From positions 1-46,106 of the forward strand of contig JAJFUG010000014.1 in the NCBI GenBank assembly GCA_021372515.1: a DNA stretch of 46,106 nt, read 5' to 3'. Shown one piece after another: positions 5,842 to 45,176 of the stretch (the stretch's first letter is position 1; each line of letters starts with the position of its first letter). This DNA is from a bacterium. GTDB lineage: Bacteria; Gemmatimonadota; Glassbacteria; GWA2-58-10. The position numbers were made by a program, and so were the translations under genes. The notes under the pieces are model-generated. The model saw only the letters and a list, made by a program, of their open reading frames with translations. It was not told the DNA's origin and ran no database searches.

Positions 5842-5870
5842 GTAGGGGAGGGTTTTAAACCCTCCCCTAC
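5842..5870. repeat. intergenic palindrome, GTAGGGG family (GGGTTT core)
   Basis: A 29-nt perfect hairpin with 14-bp arms (GTAGGGGAGGGTTT and its complement) and a 1-nt loop. It sits between the GH38 and transglutaminase genes. It belongs to the dispersed family listed at 17297, 23414, 29015, 41101, 42206, 42259 and 42323. Confidence 0.85.
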
Positions 5871-29803: not shown

Positions 29804-30667
29804 TCAGGCGAAACGGCTGAACTCCTCGATGAACTTGAACGTACGCTCCAGCTCTGACCGCAGCCGGGCTGACACCCCGATGCTCCGGGCCCGCTGCCCC
29901 AGGACCGCGGCCAGGTCCACCCGCTCCGGGCCAGGCTCGGCCAGCGGGTGCGGCTGGCCGTAGAGCACGGCCAGGCGCTCGGCCAGGGCGATCACCGCCG
30001 CTCCGACAGCGCTCCCGCGGTCGAGGCCCTCGGGCAGGCCGCAGCAGTCGGCGTGATGCAGGCCGATCAGGCGGCAGACCGCCTCCGGGATGTTCCACTG
30101 CTCGGCCAGCAGGCTGCCCGCCAGCGGGTGGTCGAAACCGAAAGCCGCCCGCTCCAGGGCCAAGGTGTCCGTACCCTCCCCCGCACGCCCCAGCCGTAAA
30201 AAAAGCCCGGCCGCGGCACGCGGGTCGAACTTCTCGAACACCACCCAGCCGATGTCGTGCAGCAGGGCCGCGGTGGTGACCGCGCCCACTGCGGCGGAGG
30301 GAATGTCCAGCTCGCGCAGGATATGCTCCGCGGCCACTGAGACGCAGTGCGAGTGACGCCAGAAAGCCTGCGGGTCGAACCCGGCCGCAGACTCGGCCGC
30401 GCCCAGGTTGTCGCGGGCCATGCTCTGGAACACGATGTTTTTCACCTGGTTGTAGCCCAGGTAGGTGATCGCGCGCGGCAGGGAGTCGATCCGGCGGCTG
30501 AGGCCGAAAGCCGCGGAGTTGACTGTCTTGAGAATGCGGGCGGCGTACAGCGGGTTGGAGGCCAGGGCCAGGGCCACCTCGCGCGGGTCGCGGTTGAAAT
30601 CCACCTGCACCACCCGGCTCGCCGGGGTTTGCATCCCGCGCAGGACATGCTCCAGGCGCCAGAGCAC
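29804..30667 (-). CDS. HDOD-domain signalling protein
   Basis: About 287 aa. The HDOD signature ILKTVNSAAFGL, SLPRAITYLGYNQVKNIV and the HD pair in LLHDIGWVVF are clear; later come FDHPLAGSLLAEQW and LIGLHHADC. HDOD proteins act in regulation of motility, biofilm and second-messenger networks, usually without known catalysis. The start is uncertain. GTG 30667 has GGAGG five bases upstream, and GTG 30673 is next to it. The 72-aa membrane peptide gene ends 40 bp upstream in another frame, and removing one G from the GGGG at 30711-30714 would join the two into one membrane-anchored protein. It is divergent from the large signalling operon. Confidence 0.85.
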   Translation of the reverse strand: MLWRLEHVLRGMQTPASRVVQVDFNRDPREVALALASNPLYAARILKTVNSAAFGLSRRIDSLPRAITYLGYNQVKNIVFQSMARDNLGAAESAAGFDPQAFWRHSHCVSVAAEHILRELDIPSAAVGAVTTAALLHDIGWVVFEKFDPRAAAGLFLRLGRAGEGTDTLALERAAFGFDHPLAGSLLAEQWNIPEAVCRLIGLHHADCCGLPEGLDRGSAVGAAVIALAERLAVLYGQPHPLAEPGPERVDLAAVLGQRARSIGVSARLRSELERTFKFIEEFSRFA

Positions 30668-30707
30668 CTCCACCTCCAGGCCGGCGCGTGACAGCGGCTC
30701 GATGCCC

Positions 30708-30926
30708 TCAACCCCGCAGGCTGACCGTGGCGAGGGCCTCCCAGATCGCTCCCGCCCCTTCAGACTGCGCCGCTGGCGCCGGCTCTGCAGCCGGGTCGGG
30801 GCCCGCTCCCGCTCCGGGCTTCGGCGTTTCATCCACGGTCGGACCCGCGTGTCTGCGGAACAGATAAAACAGAAAGTAAAGCAGCGCCGCAGCCAGCAAG
30901 GCGGTCACGAGATAGCTCAACGGCAT
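30708..30926 (-). CDS. 72-aa single-pass membrane peptide upstream of the HDOD gene
   Basis: ATG 30926 has a strong ribosome site (GGGAGGG, about 6 bases away). Residues 5-22 form a membrane helix (LVTALLAAALLYFLFYLF) followed by RRH, then a Pro/Ala/Gly-rich linker to residue 72. It either works as a small membrane protein co-transcribed with the HDOD gene, or is the N-terminal anchor of that protein separated by a frameshift. A good promoter lies just upstream (30968-30997). Confidence 0.6.
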   Translation of the reverse strand: MPLSYLVTALLAAALLYFLFYLFRRHAGPTVDETPKPGAGAGPDPAAEPAPAAQSEGAGAIWEALATVSLRG

Positions 30927-30967: not shown

Positions 30968-30997
30968 ATTTTACACTGCGCATGTCCGGCCTGTCAA
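30968..30997 (-). promoter_or_regulatory. promoter for the membrane peptide and HDOD genes
   Basis: TTGACA (30992-30997) and TAAAAT (30968-30973) are spaced by 18 bp on the minus strand. Confidence 0.6.
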
Positions 30998-31016
30998 GCC
31001 GCGGCATGATTTTGGC

Positions 31017-31046
31017 TTGACTGGGCGGCGCGGTTTCTGGTACAAT
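31017..31046 (+). promoter_or_regulatory. promoter of the signalling operon
   Basis: TTGACT (31017-31022) and TACAAT (31041-31046) are spaced by 18 bp on the plus strand, 50 bp upstream of the sensor-phosphatase start. It is back-to-back with the HDOD promoter, so both units share a 160-bp control region. Confidence 0.6.
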
Positions 31047-31095
31047 TCCAGAGCGCCGGCTGTCTCGGTGATCGCCTTGCAGTGAAGGGGTGCTC

Positions 31096-34000
31096 GTGTT
31101 GAAAGGAACCCCCGCCTTGTCCTGGAAACTCACCATACCCTCGACTCCCGGCCGCGCTCGCTGTTTCCTGGCCGCTATTCTGTCCTGCCTGGCTCTCCAG
31201 TCGCCGCTTCCGGGTGCGACCGGACCCGACCCGCAACGCCTTGCGAGCAAGAACGCCGAGCTTCGCCAGCGTCTGGAGGCCCTTCAGGCGCGCGGCGAGA
31301 TGTTCCGCTGGAGCGCTTTCGAGCAGGGCCCGCTGCTGCGAACAGGAAGCGTGCTCAAGAGCGTGGCCTGTCCAGACGGCCACCTGGCCTTTGCCACCGA
31401 CAACAGCGGCCTGGTTCTGTATGACGGGGTCAGCCTCCAGGTGCTGGACCACCGCGTCGGGCTGCCCGATGATTTTGTCACCGCCTTTGTCCCCCTCGAC
31501 AGCCAGGCGGCCTGGATCGGCACGGCCGGGGGCCTGGTGCGCGCCGGGGGCGGGCGTGTCCTCCCGCCCGACAACCTGCCCGTCTCCCTGCGCGGCGCCC
31601 TGGTGAGCTGCCTTCTGAGCGACCCGGCGGGCGGGCTCTGGGTCGGCACGCAGAGCGTCGGCCTGTGGCGTCTGGACGGCGGCGGCTGGACCTGTGTCTA
31701 CGGCGCGCCCGACAGCCTGAGCGGCCCGAGCCAGGGGATCAACGACCTGGCGCTCGACCCGGCCGGACGGGCAATCTGGGCGGCCACGGTGGGCGCGGGA
31801 CTGTTGCGGGTGGACAGCCACGGGGTGCAGCGTTTCCCAGCGCCCCTCGGCCCGGGCAGCGAGGAAATCTACTGCCTGCTCGCCGGGCGGGACGGCCTTC
31901 TCTGGCTGGGCAGCGCCGGGGCCGGGGCCGGGTTTCTGGCCGGCTCGCAGTGGCGGCGACTGGACATTCCGGAGGCCGGAAACGCTGGTGTCACCTGCCT
32001 GTGCGAGTTGAGCGACGGCAGTCTGCTGTTCGGCACCACGGCCGGGGCCTGGCTGTACGAGGCCGGCGCGGCGGAATTTTCCCGCCTGCCCCTGCCCGAG
32101 GAGCTGTCCCCCTACCCTGTAATCTCCGCAATCGAAAGCCACGGCAGCCTCTGGCTCGGAATCAGCGGCCAGGGCCTGCACGTTTTCGACCTGGAGCTGG
32201 TCCGCCGCTACGGCCCGGAGCAGGGGCTTCCCGCCCCCCAGGCGTTCAGCCTGGGGCAGTCCGGGGACGGGGCCATGTGGTGCGCCACCCGCGAGGGGGT
32301 CGTCCGCCTGGAGAACGGCCGCTGGAGCCAGCCGCGCGAGGCGGAATTCCTGCCCGACCGTCTGGTCACCTGCCTCTCCTTCGGCCCGCTGGACCGTAAA
32401 TGCTTCGGCACCTACGCCGGGGTGCTGCTGTTGGAGCAGGACGGCAGCCGGACTGTCCTCGACCGCGACAACGGCCTGGCCAGCAACATGATAAACCACC
32501 TTCAGACCGACCCAACCGGCGGGCTGTGGATTTCCACCGAGGGCGGCGGCCTGGTCGAATACCATGCCGGCGGGATCAATCAGTACAGTGAGGCCGAGGG
32601 TCTGCCCTCCGCCCAGGTCCAGGCCAGCCTGAGCACGGCTGATGGCTCGGTCTGGGTCGCTACCCGCAAGGGCCTGGCCCTGATCAGGGAGGGAATGGTT
32701 CTGTCCCGCACCGCTAAGGGCGGGCCGGTCTCGCCGGGGGCGTTCCATTTTACTTCCCTTTGCCTGGGAACGGACAGCTCGCTCTGGGCCGCCACGGACG
32801 GCATGGGCCTCTGGCAGCTGCCTCCCGGCGGCGACTGGGTCCGCCACGGCACGGAGAGCGGGTTGGCCTCCGAGGAAGTCTACTCCGTGGCCCGGGCCTC
32901 CTCCGGCCGGATCGCGGCGGGCACTGCGCTGGGACTGGGCCTGTATGACGGCACGCTGTGGCGCAACTACGGACCGCAGCAGGGAGTGGGGCCCGGAGCG
33001 GTGCGCTCGGTGTTCTGCGCCGCGGACAGCGCGCTCTGGCTCTGCGTGGAGGGCCAGGGTGTCGTGCGGTTCAACCCGGACCGTTTCGATCCGCCAGAGA
33101 CCTGGGTCCTGAGTCCCGGCGGCGGGGCTTTCACTGCCGGCCCGGACACCCGCGCCCGCAGCTTCAGGCTTTCCACCGACAGCCTGCGCGGGCAGTTCTA
33201 TCTTCCCGGCGGCTGGTCCGAGCCGCTGGAGGCCAACCCCACTGACAGCCTGCAAGTCGACAGCCTGACTGTCGAACTGGCCGCTCTCACACCCTGGTGG
33301 CCGGGCGCGGAGGGCGCGTTCCGCTATTCCTGGCGCCTGGACAACGGCCGCTGGAGCGCTTTCAGCCCGCGCAGCGACCTCGACCTCAAGGGCCTTTCCC
33401 CAGGCGCGCACGTGCTTTCGGTGCGCGCCCGCGGCCCGCACCTCAGGACCGACCCCACCCCGTCGCGCTACCGTTTCTACGTTGACCTGCCCGGCCCCTG
33501 GCGCGACTGGCGTGTCTATGCAGGCGTAGCCGTGCTTGCACTGATTATTTCAGGGCTGCTGGGGCGTCGGCGGATTGTCTGGTGGCTGGTCCGCGCCCGG
33601 CGGCGCAATTTCCGTCCCATCCAGCCCAACCCGTTCCATCCCCACCGTCCCCAGGCCGCCGATGAGCCGCTGCCGGGACGGGAGGCAGAGCTGGCGGCCC
33701 TTCTGCGCGAGGACGGCAACCAGTCGCTGGTCCTGCACGCCCAGCCGCGCAGCGGCCTGAGCAGCCTTCTGCGCCACGCCGCCGCCCGGATGCAGGCTGA
33801 CGGGGCCGGGGCTGTGCTGATCGACCTTTCCGCCCCCGGCCTGGGCGACCTTCCCCGGCTGCTGCGCCGTCTGCTGGAAAGCCTCGGTGGACAGGCCCCG
33901 GCCGCGGGCGAGGCGGTCCGTCCCGAAAGCCTGATCCCCCTGGTCCGGGAGTACGGCCGTCCGGTGCGCCTGCTGTTCGACGGGGCGGAGGCACTCGGCC

Positions 34001-35901
34001 GCATGGCCGCCCGCGACAGCACCCTGGCCGCCCGGTTCAACGATTCGCTGCGCGAGCTGCTGCAGGCAGGCGACAGGGTGTCCCTGGTGTTCGGGGTCCA
34101 TTCCCTGGAGCAGTTCCGGGCCGGGCTGCCGCAGCTCTACAGCATGAGCCGGTCCCTGAGCCTGGGCCCCCTGAGCGAGACCGCAGCGGCCCAGGCCCTG
34201 CTGCGCACCCTGTCCGGCAGCGCTACCCTGCACCGCGAGGCGCTGGTCGGCCTGGCCCGTCTGAGCGGGGGTCAGCCCTGCCTGCTCCAGCATCTGGGTT
34301 TTACCGTGGTGGAGTTGCTCAACGCCGAGGGGGTCAACTACCTGGAACCCGAGCAGGCGGACCGCGCGGTGGGGAGCCTCGTCGAATCACCCCCGGGGCT
34401 GCTGCTGGACCGCTGGGACGAGCTGTCCCGCACCGAGAAGCTTCTGCTGAGCGCCGCGGTGGCGCTGCGCTCGCGCTCCGGGCGGGACGGGCGGACCGGC
34501 CTGGCCGACATCGCCGGGCTGCTGCGCTCGCACGGACTCCCCCTGCTGGATGAGGAACTGGGCAAGGCCGCCGCGCTCCTGGCCGGTCGCGGGCTGATCG
34601 CCTATGACCCAGCCTCCGGGCGGCTCGACCCCGGTGACACCCTGCTCGCTCGCTGGGTGCGGGCGAACTGCCCGCCGGAAAGAGTCCTGGCCGCGGAGGA
34701 CTACGAGCCCTCCGAGCTGCTGCACCGCGCGGCCGGGGCGATGAGCCAGTCGTTCCGGGCGGGCGAGTTGCTGGAGCGCCTGTTCGAGGTCCTTCGCCCG
34801 GCCCTGCGTTTCGGCTGGGCCGCCTGGCTGCCGCACGGACCCGGGCGTGGCGCCGCCACCGGGACCGGTCTGCCGGTTGAGGGCCTGCCGGAAACCCTGC
34901 CGCCCGAGGCCTCCGAATGCATGGGCCACCGGGCCGGAGCGTTTCTGGCGGACGAGAGCGCCATGCAGGACTGGACAGTTCAGGTGCCTGCCGGGACATT
35001 GCTGGTCCCGGAATTCCTGCACGGCGAGCTGGACGGGGTGTTCGCGTTCGGGCCGCGCGAGGGCGGGCAGCGCTATTCCAGCCGCGACCGCGGCCTGCTG
35101 GAGAGCATGGCCGACCAGGCCGCCGTGGCCCTGGAAAACGTGCGCCTCTACGAGCAGGAGACCGAGCGCGAGCGCATGCGCCAGGAGCTGGAGACCGCCC
35201 GCCGCATGCAGTTAGCCATCCTGCCCGAGCGCTCGTTCCGCGCGCCGGGGGTGGAGATTTGCGCCTATCTCAACCCGGCCAGCGAGGTGGGCGGCGACTA
35301 TTTCGATTACCGGCGGCTGGATGAGGACCGTCTGGCTTTCGTGATCGGGGATGTCAGCGGCCACGGTCTGAGCGCCGGGACCCTGGTCTCGATGACCAAG
35401 AGCTGCCTGTTCAACCAGTTCCGGGTGGACCACAGCGCGTGCGCGGTGCTGACCGCGATGAACGACATGCTGCGCGGGGCGCTGAGCGAGCGCCTGCTGA
35501 TGACGTTCTGCTACACGGTGTTCGACACCGCCGCGCGGCAGTGTATCTATTCCATCGCCGGGCACCCGTTCCCCTACCATCTGAGTGCAGCGGGCGAGCT
35601 GAGCGAGCTGGAACTGCCAGCCTACCCGCTGGGTGCGCGGGCCAGGAACGATTTCAAGCAGCGGAGCCTGTCCTACAGCCCCGGCGACCTGTTCGTGTTC
35701 TACTCGGACGGGATCGTGGAGGGATTGAACCCGGAGGGCGAGCAGTACGGGTTCGAACGGTTCGAAGAGTCCATCCGCCGCCAGGCCGGACGCGCCAGCG
35801 TGGAGGCGGTCAGCGCCGCCCTGCTCCTGGATTTCCAGGGCTTCGCCCGCGGCGCGGCCCAGGCGGATGACCTCACTCTGGTTGTAATCCGGACAGGATG
35901 A
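31096..35901 (+). CDS. transmembrane beta-propeller sensor with ATPase-like, GAF and PP2C (SpoIIE) phosphatase domains
   Basis: About 1601 aa. After an N-terminal signal/anchor (about residues 10-35), two-component-regulator-type propeller repeats (LWVGT..., IWAAT..., LWLG..., MWCATREGVV, LWISTEGGGL, VWVATRKGL) fill about 60-670. A Y_Y_Y domain (about 740-800) and a membrane helix (about 805-825) follow. In the cytoplasm come an AAA_16/STAND-like module (about 860-1195; LPGREAELAALL and Walker-B-like LLFDGAEAL, but Leu888 replaces the P-loop Lys), a GAF domain (about 1210-1350), a coiled linker, and a PP2C domain with EVGGDYFD, VIGDVSGHG and ADDLTLVV metal-site aspartates (about 1375-1600). 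I infer a phosphatase that dephosphorylates the STAS antagonist on an extracellular signal. The start is GTG 31096, 5 bases after AAGGGG; GTG 31090 and TTG 31099 are possible. The next gene begins 3 bp after its stop. Confidence 0.92.
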   Translation: MLKGTPALSWKLTIPSTPGRARCFLAAILSCLALQSPLPGATGPDPQRLASKNAELRQRLEALQARGEMFRWSAFEQGPLLRTGSVLKSVACPDGHLAFATDNSGLVLYDGVSLQVLDHRVGLPDDFVTAFVPLDSQAAWIGTAGGLVRAGGGRVLPPDNLPVSLRGALVSCLLSDPAGGLWVGTQSVGLWRLDGGGWTCVYGAPDSLSGPSQGINDLALDPAGRAIWAATVGAGLLRVDSHGVQRFPAPLGPGSEEIYCLLAGRDGLLWLGSAGAGAGFLAGSQWRRLDIPEAGNAGVTCLCELSDGSLLFGTTAGAWLYEAGAAEFSRLPLPEELSPYPVISAIESHGSLWLGISGQGLHVFDLELVRRYGPEQGLPAPQAFSLGQSGDGAMWCATREGVVRLENGRWSQPREAEFLPDRLVTCLSFGPLDRKCFGTYAGVLLLEQDGSRTVLDRDNGLASNMINHLQTDPTGGLWISTEGGGLVEYHAGGINQYSEAEGLPSAQVQASLSTADGSVWVATRKGLALIREGMVLSRTAKGGPVSPGAFHFTSLCLGTDSSLWAATDGMGLWQLPPGGDWVRHGTESGLASEEVYSVARASSGRIAAGTALGLGLYDGTLWRNYGPQQGVGPGAVRSVFCAADSALWLCVEGQGVVRFNPDRFDPPETWVLSPGGGAFTAGPDTRARSFRLSTDSLRGQFYLPGGWSEPLEANPTDSLQVDSLTVELAALTPWWPGAEGAFRYSWRLDNGRWSAFSPRSDLDLKGLSPGAHVLSVRARGPHLRTDPTPSRYRFYVDLPGPWRDWRVYAGVAVLALIISGLLGRRRIVWWLVRARRRNFRPIQPNPFHPHRPQAADEPLPGREAELAALLREDGNQSLVLHAQPRSGLSSLLRHAAARMQADGAGAVLIDLSAPGLGDLPRLLRRLLESLGGQAPAAGEAVRPESLIPLVREYGRPVRLLFDGAEALGRMAARDSTLAARFNDSLRELLQAGDRVSLVFGVHSLEQFRAGLPQLYSMSRSLSLGPLSETAAAQALLRTLSGSATLHREALVGLARLSGGQPCLLQHLGFTVVELLNAEGVNYLEPEQADRAVGSLVESPPGLLLDRWDELSRTEKLLLSAAVALRSRSGRDGRTGLADIAGLLRSHGLPLLDEELGKAAALLAGRGLIAYDPASGRLDPGDTLLARWVRANCPPERVLAAEDYEPSELLHRAAGAMSQSFRAGELLERLFEVLRPALRFGWAAWLPHGPGRGAATGTGLPVEGLPETLPPEASECMGHRAGAFLADESAMQDWTVQVPAGTLLVPEFLHGELDGVFAFGPREGGQRYSSRDRGLLESMADQAAVALENVRLYEQETERERMRQELETARRMQLAILPERSFRAPGVEICAYLNPASEVGGDYFDYRRLDEDRLAFVIGDVSGHGLSAGTLVSMTKSCLFNQFRVDHSACAVLTAMNDMLRGALSERLLMTFCYTVFDTAARQCIYSIAGHPFPYHLSAAGELSELELPAYPLGARARNDFKQRSLSYSPGDLFVFYSDGIVEGLNPEGEQYGFERFEESIRRQAGRASVEAVSAALLLDFQGFARGAAQADDLTLVVIRTG

Positions 35902-35904
35902 GCG

Positions 35905-37974
35905 ATGAGCCTGGAATTCTCCATAGAGACCAGCCGTCAAACCCAGACCCGTCAGGGCGTACTGGAGGCTTTCTGGCGCAGCCTGCTCTCGGCCGGAGAG
36001 GCCGCTGCGCTCCTGTCCGGCCTGGCCGAGGCCCTTTCGTCCCTGACCGGCTGCGCAGCCGTGGCCTACTGCCTGGACCCGGACAGCGGTGAGCTGACCG
36101 CCGTGGGCAGCCTGCACGCGCCGGGGCTGTGCGCTCCCCGGCCGGAGGCGCTGGAGTTCCCGGAGGCCGCCGCCCCCCTGCGTCTGGACCTCTCCGCAGC
36201 ACCCGACAGCACGTCCTGGGGTGAATTCATCGCCGTCAACCGCGCGGCCCTGGAGGGCTCCGGCTGGCGTCTGGCCTGGGCGCTGCCTGCCGCGGGCCGT
36301 CTGGCCGCTCTGGTGTTCCTCTGCGCCGGGACGCGGCTTCAGCGGCGCAGCGCGCGCACCGCGGCCGAGCTGGCCCTGCGCGCGGCGGTCCTGGGCCTGG
36401 AGCGTCTGGCCGCGCGAGAGCAGGTCCGCCGGGCCTCGTTCGAGTACCGTCTCAAGTTGCTGGAGATCGAGACCCTGCGCGATGTCGGCGTGGCCCTGGG
36501 CGGCCTGCTGGACCTGGACTGCCTCTGCCGCGAGCTGCTCGCGCGCGCCGCCTCGCTGCTCAACGCAGAGCGTGCCGCGGTGCTTCTGGCCCCGGTGGCG
36601 GATTCCTCCGGGGAAAGCGTCCCCCTGGCCGTGAAAGAGTCGTTCAACCTGGAACCGGGGCAGGCCGAGGCGTTGGAGCAGTTCGTGCGGGGAAGCCTCA
36701 TCGCCGACCTGTCCGGGGGACTGGCCCTGCGGCTCAACCTCCCCGGCGCGCTGCCCTCGGCGACCGGCTGTGGCAAGCTGCTGGCCGCTCCGGTGCGCCA
36801 CAAGGGTGTGCTGTTAGGGGCTCTCCTGGCCGCGGACAAGGAGGGCCGTCACGGCGCCCGGCCGGATTTCGACCCGGAGGACGAGGGCCTTCTGACCGCG
36901 ATCGCCAATTTCGCCGGGGCCGCGGTCTCCAACGCCAACCTCTACCGCAGCGTCAACGAGATTCGCCGCTACAACGAGAGCATCCTGGCCAGCATCGCCA
37001 GCGGCGTGATCACCACCGGCGCCGGCGGGAAAATAGTGAGCTTCAACGCCTCGGCCGCGGCGATTTTCGGCCTGGAGCCGGCGGCGGCCGCAGGCCTCAG
37101 TCTGGAACAGCTTTTCGCCTCCATCGGCTGCCCCGGGCTGCCCGAACGCCTGCGCCCGGCCCTGGAGCGCGGCGTGGCTTTCCAGGAGACCAGCCTGCGC
37201 GGCGTGCGGCCGGACGGCGCCGAGTTGGTGCTCAACGTGAGCGCCGCGGCGCTTCTGGATGAGGAGAGCGGCGGAGTGCGCGGCCTGGTGGTTTCGGTGG
37301 AGAATATCTCCGAGCCGGCCCGGGTGCGGGAGATGCTCAAACGCTATGTCAGCCCGGAGGTGGCCGAGGCGGCCCTGTCCGGGGGGCGGATCCCCGGCCT
37401 CGGCGGGGAGCTGCGCGAGGTGACAGTCCTGTTCGCCGACATCCGCGGGTTCACCGCCCTGGCCGAGGCCCGTGCACCGGATGAGGTGGTGGAACTGCTC
37501 AACCGGTATTATAATCTTATGATCGAGGTGGCGTTCAGTTTCAAGGGCACGGTGGACAAGATCGTGGGCGATGAGATCATGGTGCTTTTCGGCGCTCCGG
37601 TGGCTTTCCCGGACGACAACCGCCGCGCCGCGCTCTGCGCCCTGGCCATGCTGCGCGAGCTGGAGCGTTTCAACCGGGAACGCAGGGGCCCCGGACAGCC
37701 GCCTCTGGAGGCCGGGATCGGCCTGGGGCGCGGGACGGTGATTTTCGGCAATATCGGCTCCCGCCGCCGGATGGACTACACGGTGATCGGGGACACGGTC
37801 AACCTGGCCAGCCGCCTGGTGGCCGTGGCGCGCCCGGGGCAGATCGTGGTAAGCGACAGTGTGGCCGAGTCGCTTGGAGCGCAGTTCAGCCTGCAGGAAC
37901 TGGGACGCCTGCATCTCAAGGGACGGCGCGAGCCGGTCCTGGCCTGGAGCCTCACCGACGGGCCGCGACAGTGA
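35905..37974 (+). CDS. class III adenylyl cyclase with GAF and PAS domains
   Basis: A 689-aa protein. An N-terminal unassigned helical/GAF-like part (about 10-170) is followed by a GAF domain (about 185-350), a PAS domain (about 355-465; ITTGAGGKIVSFNASAAAIFG) and the catalytic CYC domain (about 480-689). Metal ligands are Asp512 (FADIRGF) and Asp556 (VGDEIMVLFG). Base-recognition residues Lys552 and Thr631 indicate ATP rather than GTP. The transition-state pair Asn633 and Arg637 (VNLASRL) is intact. No membrane segment. It starts 3 bp after the phosphatase gene with AGGA upstream, so the two are translationally close. The cAMP it makes could be read by the twin cNMP-binding protein at 40097. 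Confidence 0.93.
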   Translation: MSLEFSIETSRQTQTRQGVLEAFWRSLLSAGEAAALLSGLAEALSSLTGCAAVAYCLDPDSGELTAVGSLHAPGLCAPRPEALEFPEAAAPLRLDLSAAPDSTSWGEFIAVNRAALEGSGWRLAWALPAAGRLAALVFLCAGTRLQRRSARTAAELALRAAVLGLERLAAREQVRRASFEYRLKLLEIETLRDVGVALGGLLDLDCLCRELLARAASLLNAERAAVLLAPVADSSGESVPLAVKESFNLEPGQAEALEQFVRGSLIADLSGGLALRLNLPGALPSATGCGKLLAAPVRHKGVLLGALLAADKEGRHGARPDFDPEDEGLLTAIANFAGAAVSNANLYRSVNEIRRYNESILASIASGVITTGAGGKIVSFNASAAAIFGLEPAAAAGLSLEQLFASIGCPGLPERLRPALERGVAFQETSLRGVRPDGAELVLNVSAAALLDEESGGVRGLVVSVENISEPARVREMLKRYVSPEVAEAALSGGRIPGLGGELREVTVLFADIRGFTALAEARAPDEVVELLNRYYNLMIEVAFSFKGTVDKIVGDEIMVLFGAPVAFPDDNRRAALCALAMLRELERFNRERRGPGQPPLEAGIGLGRGTVIFGNIGSRRRMDYTVIGDTVNLASRLVAVARPGQIVVSDSVAESLGAQFSLQELGRLHLKGRREPVLAWSLTDGPRQ

Positions 37975-37987
37975 GTTGGGGAGACAA

Positions 37988-38422
37988 ATGGACCGCATAA
38001 AGCCGTTCGACATAGAGGAGCAGATGAGTGTCCCGATGCAGCCGGACCAGGAGCTGGCCGTGGCCGAGCGCGCCGCCTCGCTGGCCCGCTGCGCCGGGTT
38101 CGACACCGACCGGGTGGACGAGATACGGATCGCGGTGATCGAGGCGGTGATAAACGCCATCGAGCACGGGAACAACCCGGAGAAGACGGTCCACGTGTCG
38201 CTGCGGCTGGAGCGTCAGCCGAAGCGGCTCGAAATCTGCATCTCCGACCGCGGGGCCGGGTTCGACCCGGAGCGCGTGGAGACGCCGGACATCCACAAGA
38301 AGATGCTCAAGGGCAACCGCAAGCGCGGCTGGGGCTTGAGCCTGATGCGCAGCCTGATGGACGAGGTGAGCATCCAGACCTCGGAGGCGGGCTCGCGCGT
38401 GGTGCTCGTGAAAAAGGGCTGA
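37988..38422 (+). CDS. RsbW/SpoIIAB-like anti-sigma serine kinase
   Basis: A 144-aa protein with a GHKL ATP-binding fold: the N-box EAVINAIEHGN, G1 box DRGAGFDP and G2 box GWGLSLMRSLMDEV are complete. Such proteins bind a sigma factor or other target and phosphorylate a STAS antagonist. ATG 37988 follows GGGGAG at 5-base spacing, 13 bp after the cyclase gene. The STAS gene is next, giving the usual phosphatase-kinase-antagonist set. The downstream target of the kinase is not encoded in the window. Confidence 0.92.
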   Translation: MDRIKPFDIEEQMSVPMQPDQELAVAERAASLARCAGFDTDRVDEIRIAVIEAVINAIEHGNNPEKTVHVSLRLERQPKRLEICISDRGAGFDPERVETPDIHKKMLKGNRKRGWGLSLMRSLMDEVSIQTSEAGSRVVLVKKG

Positions 38423-38430
38423 CAAGTGGT

Positions 38431-38459
38431 TTGACAATCCCGCCGGCCCGCTCTAAATT
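38431..38459 (+). promoter_or_regulatory. internal promoter for the STAS-vWA-cNMP genes
   Basis: TTGACA (38431-38436) and TAAATT (38454-38459) are spaced by 17 bp, 8 bp after the kinase stop codon and about 68 bp before the STAS start. It would let the last three genes be expressed apart from the first three. Confidence 0.65.
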
Positions 38460-38526
38460 CCTTATGAGGCCGGGGGCTGCGATTGCGCTCCCCCGGGCCG
38501 ATAACCAGCACGCGGAGAAAGCATCC

Positions 38527-38877
38527 ATGGCCGACATTTTTCAGGTGACTGTCCAGCGTGGCCCCGACTATGCGATCCTGCGCACGGACGGGTATGTGAA
38601 CAACACCGGGGGCGAAAAAGTCGCCGAGCAGGTCTATCGCCTGCTGGATGACGGGGTGAAACGGTTCATCCTCAACCTGTCCCGCAGCCCGATTGTCAAC
38701 AGCGTCGGCATCGCCGTGCTTATCGAGATGATCGAGCGCGTGCGGGAGGACGGGGACCGGGTGATTTTCTGCAACTGCACCCCGGTGATCGCCAAGACTT
38801 TCAAGATCATGGGACTGACCCAGTACGCCGAGCTGTGCGGCGACGAGAAGGAAGCGGTCAGCCGGATAACCGCCTGA
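38527..38877 (+). CDS. STAS-domain anti-sigma factor antagonist
   Basis: A 116-aa STAS protein of the SpoIIAA/RsbV type. The ISRSPIVNSVGIAVL-like segment (LSRSPIVNSVG) places Ser59 at the conserved phosphorylation site. It should bind the adjacent RsbW-like kinase when unphosphorylated and be reset by the PP2C domain of the 1601-aa protein. ATG 38527 follows GGAG at 9-base spacing. It has its own promoter and lies 16 bp before the vWA gene. Confidence 0.93.
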   Translation: MADIFQVTVQRGPDYAILRTDGYVNNTGGEKVAEQVYRLLDDGVKRFILNLSRSPIVNSVGIAVLIEMIERVREDGDRVIFCNCTPVIAKTFKIMGLTQYAELCGDEKEAVSRITA

Positions 38878-38893
38878 GAATGGACTGAACACG

Positions 38894-40048
38894 ATGAAAA
38901 GAGCTGTGGCCGGCCTGCTTGCCGCTGTCTCGGTCCTGCTGTGCGGGGGGCTCTACGCCGCTTTCCCCAAGGAGCAGCTCCGCGACAAACGGGTTATGAA
39001 CATCATCGTCATCCTCGACTGCTCGGCCAGCATGAACAAGATCATCGGCCCGGTGCGCAAGACCGACATCGCGCGCAAGGTGGTCGAGACGATCCTGGAG
39101 GGTATGTACCAGGACAGCCACGACGCCGGCTCGATGAAATCGGGCCTGCGGGTGTTCGGCTCCAAGTTCTTCAAGTGGAAGCAGAACTGCGACGACACCT
39201 CGCTGGAGGTGGCGCTGGACGACATCGAGAAGACCCGCCCGCCGATCAACGATAAAATCTCCACAATCGTCGCCAAGGGGCAGAGTTCGCTGTCTCTGAC
39301 CATCGACGCGCTGAAAGGTGATTTCCCGGAGGAGAACGACAAGGCCAATTTTATCGTGGTGGTGTCGGACGGTGACGAGTCGTGCGGCGGCAGCCCCTGT
39401 GACGCGGTCCGGCAACTGATCGCCGACAGCCGGGGGGTTTCGGTCAACACGATCGGCGTGGAAACCGACCAGGCCGGCCTGGACAACCTGAACTGCATGG
39501 CCCAGGCGGGCAACGGACGGTATTTCGACAGCAAGGATGTCCAGGAGTTCGTCAATTTCCTCAAGGACGCCAACCGGACGATCCAGAGCAACCGCCGCAG
39601 CCTGGCCCTTAACGAGGCCAAGAACGACACCAGCACGATACGCATGCGGGACGTGACCGAGTCGATGACGCTCTACAAAGTGGAGGCGGCCACCCCGCTG
39701 TACCCCGACCGGGACGAGCGTTTCGCCGCCCTGGACACCCTGCACCCGGAGGACCGCCTTTTCCTGATCTCCAGCCGCGGGCTGTGGAAAGAGATTTTCG
39801 TCCCGGACAAGAAGCTTCAGGGCTGGGTCCTGGCCATGACCGGCGGCTCGCAGTCCTCGGTGACAGTTTCGGACGCCAAGACACCGCTCTACACCGAAAA
39901 AAGCCCCTCCAGCGAGGTGCTGACCTATCTGGACGCCGGCGAGCAGCTCACCGTGCTCAAGCAGGAGGGCACCTGGTACCAGGTGTTCAGCCAGAAACTC
40001 AACCTGCGCGGCTGGGTGATCGCTTTCAACGTGGCGGAAAACCGCTGA
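38894..40048 (+). CDS. secreted von Willebrand factor A protein with C-terminal SH3-like domains
   Basis: A 384-aa protein with a signal peptide (residues 1-22, no lipobox cysteine). The vWA domain (about 33-225) keeps the first MIDAS motif DCSAS (Asp42, Ser44, Ser46) and a later SDGDES. Residues about 235-384 form two bacterial SH3-like units (around LYPDRDERFAALDTLHPEDRLFLIS and LYTEKSPSSEVLTYLDAGEQLTVL, each ending in a G-W-V strand), which often bind cell wall. It is placed inside the partner-switching gene set, 16 bp after STAS. I infer an extracytoplasmic adhesion or wall-sensing part of the same process; no direct link is shown. Confidence 0.85.
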   Translation: MKRAVAGLLAAVSVLLCGGLYAAFPKEQLRDKRVMNIIVILDCSASMNKIIGPVRKTDIARKVVETILEGMYQDSHDAGSMKSGLRVFGSKFFKWKQNCDDTSLEVALDDIEKTRPPINDKISTIVAKGQSSLSLTIDALKGDFPEENDKANFIVVVSDGDESCGGSPCDAVRQLIADSRGVSVNTIGVETDQAGLDNLNCMAQAGNGRYFDSKDVQEFVNFLKDANRTIQSNRRSLALNEAKNDTSTIRMRDVTESMTLYKVEAATPLYPDRDERFAALDTLHPEDRLFLISSRGLWKEIFVPDKKLQGWVLAMTGGSQSSVTVSDAKTPLYTEKSPSSEVLTYLDAGEQLTVLKQEGTWYQVFSQKLNLRGWVIAFNVAENR

Positions 40049-40096
40049 GCCGCGTGCTTCTGATTCCCGCCTCAAGCCTGCAGGAGAGACACCACC

Positions 40097-40972
40097 ATGG
40101 CCGGAGTACTCAAAAAACACCTCAAGGGTGAGACGATCATCGCCGAGGGCACCGAGGGCAAGGCGGTGTTCATCATCCGCAGCGGCCAGGTGGAGGTTTC
40201 GAAGCAGACCCCCGGCGGCGCGGTCCGCCTGGCCACCCTGGGGCCGGGGGAGGTGTTCGGCGAAATGAGCATGGTGGACGACCGGTTCTCCAAACGCACA
40301 GCCACGGTGCGGGCGGTCGAGGACTGCGAGATAATAGTCTTGGACAAGAAAGGCTTCGAGCACTACCTCCGCCAGTCCTCCACCGGGATTTTCAACCTGA
40401 TCAAAAACCTGGCCCAGCGCCTGCGCGAGACCAACGACATAATCGCCCGGGCCGGGATCGACGTACACAACCTGCCCCGCTCGCGGCAGGCCATGCCGGT
40501 GGATGAGAACAGCCCGAAGAACATCACCCTGGACCAGCTCAAGGAATCGGTGGAGGCGGCGGTGGACCTCAACCTGATCCCCAAAAAGTTCAAGGCCGGA
40601 CAGGTCCTGGTGCGCGAGGGCGCCGAGGCTTTGAGCGTGTTCATGCTCAAGAGCGGCACGGTGACTGTGACGAAAAGGCTGGGCGAGCGGGAGGTCGAGC
40701 TGGACCGCCTCTGCGCCAACGAGGTGTTCGGCGAGTCCGCGATGTTCGGCGAGGGGCGGCGCACCGCAACGGTGACCGCGGATGAGGCGGGCGAGTTGGT
40801 GGTGTTCGGCCGCAACGACATGGAAAACATGCTGCGCAAGGCCCCGCTGGAGTTGTTCCTGGTGCTGGAGTGCCTGAACCAGAAAATGCAGCGCAGCACC
40901 CTGCGTTATTTGGATAGCCTGCGCGAGATCGAGCGCCTCAAAGCCGAGCTCGCCGCCGCCCGCGGGCAGTAG
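40097..40972 (+). CDS. protein with two cyclic-nucleotide-binding domains
   Basis: A 291-aa protein with two cNMP-binding (CRP-type) beta-rolls. The first spans about residues 1-120, with FGEMSM and Arg67 in KRTATV. The second spans about 165-270, with FGESAM and RRTATV. Both keep the phosphate-binding Gly-Glu and Arg, so both may bind cAMP. A helical linker and a short coiled tail follow; no HTH DNA-binding or kinase domain is present. It acts most likely as a cAMP-dependent adaptor, matching the cyclase gene four positions upstream. ATG 40097 has AGGAGAG upstream. A 220-bp gap with a palindromic repeat follows. Confidence 0.9.
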   Translation: MAGVLKKHLKGETIIAEGTEGKAVFIIRSGQVEVSKQTPGGAVRLATLGPGEVFGEMSMVDDRFSKRTATVRAVEDCEIIVLDKKGFEHYLRQSSTGIFNLIKNLAQRLRETNDIIARAGIDVHNLPRSRQAMPVDENSPKNITLDQLKESVEAAVDLNLIPKKFKAGQVLVREGAEALSVFMLKSGTVTVTKRLGEREVELDRLCANEVFGESAMFGEGRRTATVTADEAGELVVFGRNDMENMLRKAPLELFLVLECLNQKMQRSTLRYLDSLREIERLKAELAAARGQ

Positions 40973-41100
40973 ACGGCGTCGCAGTCCCTCCCGCCGGACA
41001 CCGCCGGCTGAGCCCCCGAGTCGCTCAGCCACCCCGAAGTCGAACCCGAATAAATCCGGATGAGCCACACCGCGGCAGAGTTGCGATACAGAAAATGCAA

Positions 41101-41121
41101 GGGCGGGTTTGAAACCCGCCC
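41101..41121. repeat. intergenic palindrome, GTAGGGG family (GGGTTT core)
   Basis: GGGCGGGTTT and AAACCCGCCC flank a 1-nt loop; the right side continues CTACG like the family, while the left outer arm has degenerated to GCAA. It lies between the cNMP-binding gene and ldcA and may end the signalling operon. Confidence 0.8.
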
Positions 41122-41195
41122 CTACGTCGAATCAAGAAGGCCAACCCTGCAATAGATTGCGGGACATTCTCCGATCAACCCGGCAAGGACATCCC

Positions 41196-42205: not shown

Positions 42206-42234
42206 GCAGGGGCGGGTTTAAAACCCGCCCCTGC
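42206..42234. repeat. intergenic palindrome 1 of a 3-copy cluster (GGGTTT core)
   Basis: A 14-bp perfect stem GCAGGGGCGGGTTT with 1-nt loop, just after ldcA. The gap 42150-42458 between ldcA and the convergent HEAT gene holds three palindromes and one imperfect GC-rich hairpin (about 42352-42395) but no gene. Confidence 0.85.
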
Positions 42235-42458: not shown

Positions 42459-45176
42459 TCAGACGAAGTTCTTGATCTTTTCCTTGATATTCTCGTAGGC
42501 GAACGGCTTGAGCAGGTAGTCGTTTGCCCCCAGTCGGGTGGCCTGCTTGAGCAGGACACTCGAATTGACATCGCTCATCACGATCACCGGGGTCTGCACT
42601 GTGTTCTCGGTCTCGCGCAGGACTTTGAGCGCATCCAGGCCGTTCATCACCGGCATGCGCAAGTCCAGCAGCACCAGGTCGGGGGTCTGTTTCTCGGCGT
42701 AGGCCAGAGCCGCCCGCCCGTTGAGCGCGGCGCTGGCCCGGAACCCATCCCCCTTGAGCCTGCGGCAGAGGTCCTGGCAGAAACGCAGGTCGTCATCCGC
42801 CACCAGGATATGCACCCCCTCCTCCCGCCGCTGTATCTTGCCGCGCGCCCGTTTCAGGTGCTCCAGCACTCTGTCGTCCTTGTCAGACTCCACTATCTTG
42901 AGCAACTGCTTGAGCTGTGGCTCGTTGTGCCCGATCTCTCCGATCACCCAGACCCCGGTGCAGCGGGTCTCGGGGTCGCCGTCCAGCATGAGGTCGCGTA
43001 ACGGGTCCTCCACCTCGCGGTGGCCGAATTTCCAGATGGCCTTGATCGCGTTGCCTCGCACCCGGTTGTCCTTGTCGTACTTGTATTTCATCAGGATACC
43101 GAGCACGTTGCGGTTGCCCGAGGACTCCAGCGACTCGATCACGTTGGCCCGCACCCGGGCGTTGGGGTCGTTGAGCAGCTTCATCAGCAGGCTGGTCTCG
43201 TTCTGCTTGAGCATGTCCGCGATCAGCTTGACCGCCGTGGCCCGCACGTGGTCGTCCGAGTCTTGGATGATGTCGGCCAGGGTGCGGGCGGTGAAATCCT
43301 TATCCTCGCGGATCAGGATGTCCAGCACTTTCTGCGAGGTCTTCGGGTTGCCCAGCTCCAGGTCCTTGATATAGGCGTAGCTGCTGTCCACGGCCACCAC
43401 GAATTCCACCAGCTTCTTTTTCTGCTGGATTCCGAGCTGCGGCTTCTCCTCGTCCTCGCGCAGGGTGCGCAGGATTGTCTTGACCACCGCGTTGCGGGCC
43501 AGTTTGCGTATGAACTCGCTGTTGTACTGTGACAGCGGAAGGATGTGCTTGAGGCTGTCGAGACTGCCCAGGAAAGCCAGGTCCTTGAGGATTTTTATTT
43601 TGGCCGAGTCAGGCAGTTTCTTCAACTGTGCGGCCTGGAGCTGGAGACGCTTTTCCGGGTCGGTCTCGGAAGCAGGGTCGATCTTCTCATCGGCCGGCTG
43701 GCCGGGCTCGGCCGGAGCCTCCTCCTGAGCGGCGGCCAGGGCCTCTTCGGTCGTGTCCGCCGGGGACGTGGCCGGACTGTCCTCCCCGGTGGCGCTGAAC
43801 TCCTTATCCATCTCGTCCAGGTGTGTACGGATCTCCTTGAAAATCTCACGCGCCCGGCGTTCCAGATGGGGCTTGCGCAGGAACGACAGCTCGATGAAAA
43901 AGTAGAGGACCTGAACGAGGCGCTTGATGTTGTCGCTGTAGGTCTGGACTACGGAGTTCTGGTAGTCGACGCTGTTTTTCTGGCGGTATTCCTCGATGCT
44001 CTTCTGGGCGAGGTTGATCTGCTCCTCCAGCATCCCGGGGTTGCCCAGGCGCAGCACCAGGATGTTCAGGTCCCCCTCGGGCAGGCAGCCGGGCGGGGGC
44101 GGCGTGCTTTCATCCGCTTTCAGGGCGGCCAGCTTGTCGCGCAACGTGGCGAACAGGTCGGCCTGCGCTTTCTGCTCCTGGCTGAGACGCTGGCCGGGGA
44201 TTTCCTTTATCTCGAGCAGAGCCACCAGCTTTTCCACGGTCTTGCAGTCCAGCTCCTGCAGCCAGAGCTTGCGGTTCTGGCGGGCCTCCTTGGCCCCGGC
44301 GTTCATGTAGAGCACCCGCTTGAACACCAGGGCCTGGCGCAAGGCCTCCAGCTCGAACTCGTAGTACTTGCGGAACTTTTCCAGCAGGCCCTTGATCAGG
44401 TTCTGTGAGCCGCTGGCCGCATAGACCTCGTCCAGCACGCGGCGCACCCCGGTCAGGGGGTCATGGTCCGCGCTGATCTCCACCAGCAGGCGGGCCAGGC
44501 GCTCCAGTTTCTTGCAGATCAGGACCTGGGTGGTCAGACTGCGCGAGGGCTCGATGTGGTGGATCTCGTCATCCAGCCGCGGCGAGAGGGAGGATTTCTT
44601 AGTCTGGTCTATCGTCACCCGCTGGATATTCAGACGGTTGAACTCATCCAGATAGAAAAAGAAGCGCAGGAGGGTGTCCTCCTCGGCCAGGAAATCCTCG
44701 AAGCGCTTCTTGACCTCCTCCAGCTTGTCGCCCTGGATCAGGTCGTACTGGTAGGTATAGCGCAGGAAAATCGTGATGAAACAGTGGTAGAACTCCGAGA
44801 TGTCACCGGCGAATATTTTCTCCAGCGCATCCAGCTTGGTGCGGAAATATTCCTCCAGGACCTGGCTGCGCACCGCCGGGTCGGAGTTTTCGGAGATTCT
44901 TTCCCGGAAAACGCTGTCGAGGACCGCGAAAGCCCCCATCAGCGAATCTCCCAGGGTAGTCTCCTCCATGCGCAGGTTCACCCGTTTGCTCAGGAAAGTC
45001 TGGGCAAAGCGTGAATCCTGCTTGAGCTTGTCGTAGCGGCCCAGGAAGATCAGCCCCGTGTCTTCGTTCAGCCGGGGCAGGCCCTGCTGGACCTCGCTGG
45101 CGCGTAACGCTTCGATCCGGCTTTCGAGGAACTTCCGTGCCTCGACCCCCGGGTTGACTCTCAGACCGAAATCCAT
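42459..45176 (-). CDS. large HEAT-repeat protein with C-terminal receiver domain
   Basis: A 905-aa protein. Residues 1 to about 460 are helical and unassigned; about 460-520 are an acidic, Ala/Pro-rich linker. HEAT/PBS-lyase-like repeats fill about 545-780 (for example HVRATAVKLIADML, RVRANVIESLESSG, RVRGNAIKAIWKFG). A CheY-type receiver domain ends the protein (about 790-905): acidic pair ADDD, phospho-acceptor Asp838 in LLDLRMP, and Lys890 in LLKPF. No output domain follows, so phosphorylation may change the HEAT scaffold. No signal peptide. No histidine kinase is adjacent. ATG 45176 has AAAGG upstream, and a promoter (45233-45261) lies ahead. Confidence 0.87.
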   Translation of the reverse strand: MDFGLRVNPGVEARKFLESRIEALRASEVQQGLPRLNEDTGLIFLGRYDKLKQDSRFAQTFLSKRVNLRMEETTLGDSLMGAFAVLDSVFRERISENSDPAVRSQVLEEYFRTKLDALEKIFAGDISEFYHCFITIFLRYTYQYDLIQGDKLEEVKKRFEDFLAEEDTLLRFFFYLDEFNRLNIQRVTIDQTKKSSLSPRLDDEIHHIEPSRSLTTQVLICKKLERLARLLVEISADHDPLTGVRRVLDEVYAASGSQNLIKGLLEKFRKYYEFELEALRQALVFKRVLYMNAGAKEARQNRKLWLQELDCKTVEKLVALLEIKEIPGQRLSQEQKAQADLFATLRDKLAALKADESTPPPPGCLPEGDLNILVLRLGNPGMLEEQINLAQKSIEEYRQKNSVDYQNSVVQTYSDNIKRLVQVLYFFIELSFLRKPHLERRAREIFKEIRTHLDEMDKEFSATGEDSPATSPADTTEEALAAAQEEAPAEPGQPADEKIDPASETDPEKRLQLQAAQLKKLPDSAKIKILKDLAFLGSLDSLKHILPLSQYNSEFIRKLARNAVVKTILRTLREDEEKPQLGIQQKKKLVEFVVAVDSSYAYIKDLELGNPKTSQKVLDILIREDKDFTARTLADIIQDSDDHVRATAVKLIADMLKQNETSLLMKLLNDPNARVRANVIESLESSGNRNVLGILMKYKYDKDNRVRGNAIKAIWKFGHREVEDPLRDLMLDGDPETRCTGVWVIGEIGHNEPQLKQLLKIVESDKDDRVLEHLKRARGKIQRREEGVHILVADDDLRFCQDLCRRLKGDGFRASAALNGRAALAYAEKQTPDLVLLDLRMPVMNGLDALKVLRETENTVQTPVIVMSDVNSSVLLKQATRLGANDYLLKPFAYENIKEKIKNFV

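Follow-up and report, generated by a model that had tools for sequence, protein, structure and literature searches.

Partner-switch genes conserved alongside a predicted class III adenylyl cyclase gene in Candidatus Glassbacteria

Partner switches are best known for their control of sigma factors, and the few known cases that work through a second messenger make c-di-GMP. In the SiaABCD system of Pseudomonas aeruginosa, the phosphorylation state of SiaC depends on a PP2C phosphatase and a kinase, and it is the unphosphorylated form that activates the diguanylate cyclase SiaD (PMC7278518, PMC8457831). In HsbRAD of the same organism phosphorylated HsbA binds HsbD (PMC6482189), and there, as in BgrRV of Sinorhizobium, the phosphorylation state of a STAS protein controls a cyclase (PMC6482189, PMC8457831). 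An initial annotation of the DNA analysed here implied that the gene combination described below lacks precedent; these three systems, however, already tie partner switches to second-messenger cyclases. For a partner switch with an adenylyl cyclase we found no described system in the open-access literature searched.

The window (the whole stretch of DNA that was analysed, 46,106 nucleotides) belongs to Glassbacteria, a little-known, uncultured group represented here only by metagenome assemblies, in which the locus would offer a testable signalling pathway. Pfam and codon-based gene calls identified six intact genes, all on the plus strand, at 31090-40972:

31090-35901, plus strand: sensor phosphatase (PP2C) gene (Pfam, hydropathy, conserved metal Asp motifs)
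35905-37974, plus strand: predicted class III adenylyl cyclase gene with GAF and PAS domains (Pfam, catalytic residues)
37988-38422, plus strand: RsbW/SpoIIAB-like serine kinase gene, HATPase_c_2 (Pfam, PDB match, N-box)
38527-38877, plus strand: STAS antagonist gene with candidate phospho-acceptor Ser59 (Pfam, SpoIIAA alignment, invariance in six genomes)
38894-40048, plus strand: vWA gene, product with a C-terminal SH3_3 domain and predicted to be exported (Pfam, N-terminal hydrophobic segment, DxSxS)
40097-40972, plus strand: twin CNB gene without a DNA-binding domain (Pfam, two CNB domains only; invariant E56 and R67)

The gaps between them are, in gene order, 3, 13, 104, 16 and 48 bp, and the gene calls thus bear out the six adjacent same-strand genes, 3-104 bp apart, of the initial annotation. 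Pfam also backs each domain listed there. That list was incomplete, having missed AAA_22, GAF and the transmembrane segment of the phosphatase and GAF and PAS of the cyclase; moreover, position 31017, given there as the start of the set, proved to be the -35 hexamer of a likely promoter, with the phosphatase open reading frame beginning at about 31090.

The phosphatase, of 1603 residues, consists of a Reg_prop beta-propeller, one transmembrane segment (residues 807-825, separating the propeller from the cytoplasmic part), AAA_22, GAF and a SpoIIE-type PP2C domain, as judged by Pfam and hydropathy. The SpoIIE match reaches 138 bits, and the metal-binding Asp motifs of the PP2C domain, GGDYFD, GDVSGHG, SDGI and DDLT, are intact and conserved. 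AAA_22 is degenerate, with a P-loop that lacks the usual Lys in the window and in two complete relatives, and Pfam gave no support for a Y_Y_Y domain after the propeller. A frame break of this gene in genome G001 is apparent only, as the assembly contains an N run there. The closest solved structures to the kinase are RsbW (6m36), which is the best, and SpoIIAB, and its RsbW-type N-box, EAVINAIEHG, is conserved. The STAS protein (PF01740) carries Ser59, which aligns with Ser58 of SpoIIAA, the serine replaced by alanine in mutant chain 1tid, and which is invariant in six of six genomes. The locus therefore resembles RsbU/RsbW/RsbV and SpoIIE/SpoIIAB/SpoIIAA of Bacillus in having a PP2C phosphatase, a GHKL serine kinase and a STAS protein with an aligned phospho-serine; unlike them, it has no linked sigma factor and has cyclase and CNB genes instead. 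Phosphatase, kinase and STAS protein very probably form a cognate partner switch, the best-supported core of the locus, and the set that had been named at the outset is complete, with its residues intact. The enzyme activities given to the locus proteins are those that we infer from knowledge of their families.

In the cyclase, GAF and PAS domains precede the class III catalytic (Guanylate_cyc) domain (Pfam), which aligns over its full length with CyaB (3r5g) and Cya2 (2w01). The catalytic residues D512, K552, D556, T626, N633 and R637 are all there, and include those expected of a class III adenylyl cyclase, namely the two metal Asp (D512 and D556), the N633-R637 pair and Lys K552. At the purine-selecting position of class III cyclases a Lys goes with a preference for ATP. 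The locus enzyme has Lys at this position, as does 6fht, a fusion annotated as adenylate cyclase, in contrast to the Glu of 2w01, which we take to be the guanylyl cyclase Cya2; the GAF and PAS input further sets the locus enzyme apart from CyaB and Cya2. With the ATP-selecting Lys present, the protein is predicted to be a class III adenylyl cyclase, as originally proposed.

The locus resembles the SiaABCD operon in bringing together genes for a membrane PP2C protein, a kinase, a small phospho-switched partner and a second-messenger cyclase, and the NCBIfam SiaA model hits its PP2C domain, though with a score below the cut-off. The two differ, however, in that the cyclase here is of the class III adenylyl type (Guanylate_cyc) and SiaD is a GGDEF diguanylate cyclase, and in that the partner here is a true STAS protein (PF01740) with Ser59, whereas SiaC is a DUF1987 protein with Thr68. 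In addition, the locus has a beta-propeller as its sensor, extra genes for CNB and vWA-SH3 proteins, and a separate promoter for STAS. HsbRAD and BgrRV differ from the locus in that their cyclases make c-di-GMP, and HsbR is a single protein that unites receiver, phosphatase and kinase. By analogy, the most likely reading is that the locus works like SiaABCD, yet is not a SiaABCD member.

As the best explanation of the locus we put forward, tentatively, a partner switch that feeds a cAMP circuit and would be the equivalent of SiaABCD for cAMP; this is the simplest interpretation of the position of the cyclase gene, between those of the phosphatase and the kinase. The intact and conserved catalytic and phospho-acceptor residues count in favour of this circuit. 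In such a circuit, the extracytoplasmic propeller would sense a ligand and, via the single transmembrane helix, AAA and GAF, activate the cytoplasmic PP2C domain, which would remove the phosphate from Ser59 of the STAS protein; the RsbW-like kinase, the gene of which is closely linked to those of the phosphatase and cyclase, would phosphorylate the same residue. The phosphorylation state of the STAS protein would then act on the adenylyl cyclase, either by direct binding, as SiaC acts on SiaD, or through the kinase, a link that we draw from gene position and from the precedents of SiaABCD and HsbA-HsbD. The resulting cAMP would be read by the twin CNB protein, encoded on the same transcript as the STAS protein and the exported vWA-SH3 protein, the latter a candidate envelope output. 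Control of the cyclase by the STAS protein, cAMP as the CNB ligand and the output role of vWA-SH3 are what we only infer. The initial annotation further proposed that one extracellular signal, read by the propeller, might govern both arms. The narrower proposal, that the STAS protein directly switches the class III adenylyl cyclase in a phosphorylation-dependent way and that a dedicated twin-CNB protein reads the cAMP output, is possible but doubtful. If true, the presence of an adenylyl cyclase inside such a unit would demonstrate that different messengers can be connected to the same module.

The same components could be wired in reverse, with cAMP tuning the phosphatase via its GAF domain or the CNB protein, in which case cAMP would be an input to the switch and not what it puts out. 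Cyclic nucleotides are among the ligands that GAF domains can bind, and the GAF domain of the phosphatase adjoins the PP2C domain (Pfam). GAF ligands are many, however, and no cNMP-specific signature is established for this GAF; we regard reverse wiring as quite improbable.

In the twin CNB protein, Pfam detected only two cNMP_binding domains and no CRP/FNR-type C-terminal helix-turn-helix. Site A has Glu56 and Arg67, invariant in six of six genomes. Site B (40727-40768) reads RTA in the window, a motif that is also that of cGMP kinase, and RFF or RFT in the other five of the six genomes, and this alteration counts against the cAMP circuit. Because the closest solved relatives of the protein are cGMP-dependent kinases, sequence alone does not fix its ligand as cAMP or cGMP; its initial description as a second-messenger reader is plausible. 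The C-terminal tail of the window protein is 30-40 residues shorter than in relatives, and structure prediction gave a poor model (mean pLDDT 59.7). Residues 2-26 of the vWA protein form a hydrophobic segment at the N terminus, and the protein is predicted to be exported; its DxSxS motif is invariant, and Pfam supports one SH3_3 domain, at the C terminus, and no second SH3 domain. Its predicted structure was also poor (mean pLDDT 47.7).

We found no match to SigB/F/G-type and related sigma-70 factors on the contig of the window, and for these factors the earlier statement that the window has no sigma factor is right. No SigB/F/G-type factor scored over the family model cut-off anywhere in the genome, which counts for the cAMP circuit. 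Five sigma-70-type factors, all unlinked, are encoded elsewhere and, as candidate targets of the switch, count against it; by reading their sequences we assigned one as RpoD-like, three as group-2-like (~290 aa) and one as FliA-like. The switch could then be a canonical one whose target is FliA or a group-2-like sigma factor encoded elsewhere, with a parallel, co-regulated arm, formed by the cyclase and the CNB protein, that makes no direct contact with it. The availability of these factors and the kinship of the kinase with RsbW and SpoIIAB both argue for this, as does a kinase-STAS pair found without a cyclase relative in genome G181 (see below). However, no SigB/F/G-type factor was seen at the relatives' loci either, and the cyclase gene has the phosphatase gene on one side and the kinase gene on the other, with overlaps on both sides in two relatives. 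On balance, we find a canonical sigma-factor switch somewhat unlikely.

The genome contains in total three SpoIIE-type phosphatases, two clear RsbW-type kinases and four STAS matches, together with two class III cyclases and a second twin-CNB gene. Since neither the cyclase nor the twin-CNB protein of the locus is the only one of its kind, cAMP is not necessarily a local signal, which counts against the cAMP circuit. A second switch, on contig C119 (L084, 4819-9589), comprises a GAF-PP2C protein, a kinase and a STAS protein with DSSG, and lies directly 5' of MlaE/MlaF/MlaD-like transport genes. Elsewhere, a lone STAS gene with the phospho-site DGFG, without serine, adjoins a convergent gene with SH3-like sequence (L082, 6027-6389), and a PP2C-domain gene adjoins an iron-sulfur, hydrogenase-like gene (L083, 5103-8044).

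A promoter consensus scan of the locus stretch returned 4 promoter-like sites versus 0.5 in shuffles, two of which are intergenic on the sense strand. These sites and the flanking features are as follows:

29804-30832, minus strand: HDOD-domain gene, divergent neighbour (Pfam; position kept in all testable genomes)
30968-30997, minus strand: conserved divergent promoter of the HDOD gene (scan; TTGAC(A/T)-N18-TA..AT in 5/5 genomes)
31017-31046, plus strand: promoter TTGACT-N18-TACAAT, 5' of the phosphatase gene (consensus scan, conserved)
38431-38459, plus strand: internal promoter TTGACA-N17-TAAATT in the kinase-STAS gap (consensus scan, aligned in six genomes)
41097-41125, no strand assigned: palindrome GGGGCGGGTTTNAAACCCGCCCC between the CNB gene and the next (terminator-like match)

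A similar CTTGACT-N18-TA site precedes the PP2C gene in the five testable genomes (the window and four relatives), where it stands back to back with the HDOD promoter (30968-31046, conserved in 5/5 genomes); the HDOD gene may belong to the same circuit as the switch. In the kinase-STAS gap, TTGAC(A/T)-N17-TA(C/A/G)ATT is aligned in 6/6 genomes, with a score that 1 to 43 of 1000 shuffles reach for any single gap. We rejected a single six-gene operon on this conserved internal promoter. The term operon, as first applied to the locus, is thus only partly right: the conserved promoters indicate that the six genes probably form two units, not one with a single promoter. These would be PP2C-cyclase-kinase and STAS-vWA-CNB, with read-through across the gap possible. 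Within the first unit, 4-bp (ATGA) overlaps join phosphatase to cyclase and cyclase to kinase in the relatives L015 and L016, and the corresponding gaps in the window measure 3 and 13 bp; the cyclase and both switch enzymes are therefore probably translated together. The overlaps count for the cAMP circuit; the separation of the STAS promoter from the cyclase counts against it.

The locus is present in all five other Candidatus Glassbacteria genomes of the family examined. All six genes are contiguous, in the same order and orientation, in L015 and L016, the two relatives with an unbroken locus, and fragments on short contigs in the remaining three genomes fit the same gene order. The co-occurrence by chance in one strain that would have undone the initial proposal is thus ruled out, and the shared order is a further point for the cAMP circuit. 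The family-specific vWA gene had no match at 1e-10 in 144 further genomes of the phylum, and a search of genome contigs with a vWA alignment hit Glassbacteria-type genomes only, plus one remote vWA match. Outside the family, a search of about 290 genomes for the STAS gene yielded one, G181 (L093), where kinase and STAS genes adjoin, with the same NSVG loop, among unrelated neighbours; the pair is followed by a gene for a propeller-like protein. As G181 had no cyclase match at 1e-15, the kinase-STAS pair can occur without this cyclase, which counts against the cAMP circuit.

The conservation extends beyond the six genes. Thirteen genes at 25.8-46.1 kb of the window matched in the relatives' loci in the same order, whereas the 16 called genes at 1-25.7 kb, used as a control, matched nothing in the sequence retrieved around those loci; the six genes thus lie within a preserved block. 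Because this block also includes tRNA-dihydrouridine synthase, endonuclease III, S66 peptidase and trpE genes, synteny alone is no proof of joint function, and the housekeeping company counts against the cAMP circuit. The two arms could accordingly be independent units that are neighbours only through inheritance of the whole 13-gene block, as these genes and the two conserved promoters would allow. Such uncoupling would, however, split one partner switch over both units, with the kinase in one and its substrate in the other, and the other two RsbW-type kinase loci read (C119 and G181) both have kinase and STAS together; we hold it to be improbable. As to the cAMP circuit, the fact that these genes stay together is suggestive, though no proof, of control of cAMP by the switch, by analogy with the Pseudomonas systems.

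The palindrome at 41097-41125 is a possible terminator or repeat element, possibly REP-like. Near-identical copies of GGGGCGGGTTTNAAACCCGCCCC flank the S66 peptidase gene (41097-41125 and 42206-42234), and a variant lies at 5845-5867; palindrome matches numbered 6 (3 sites on both strands) versus 0 expected in shuffles. Further downstream, 42459-45176 encodes a conserved protein of 905 residues that contains HEAT repeats and has a response-regulator receiver domain at its C terminus.
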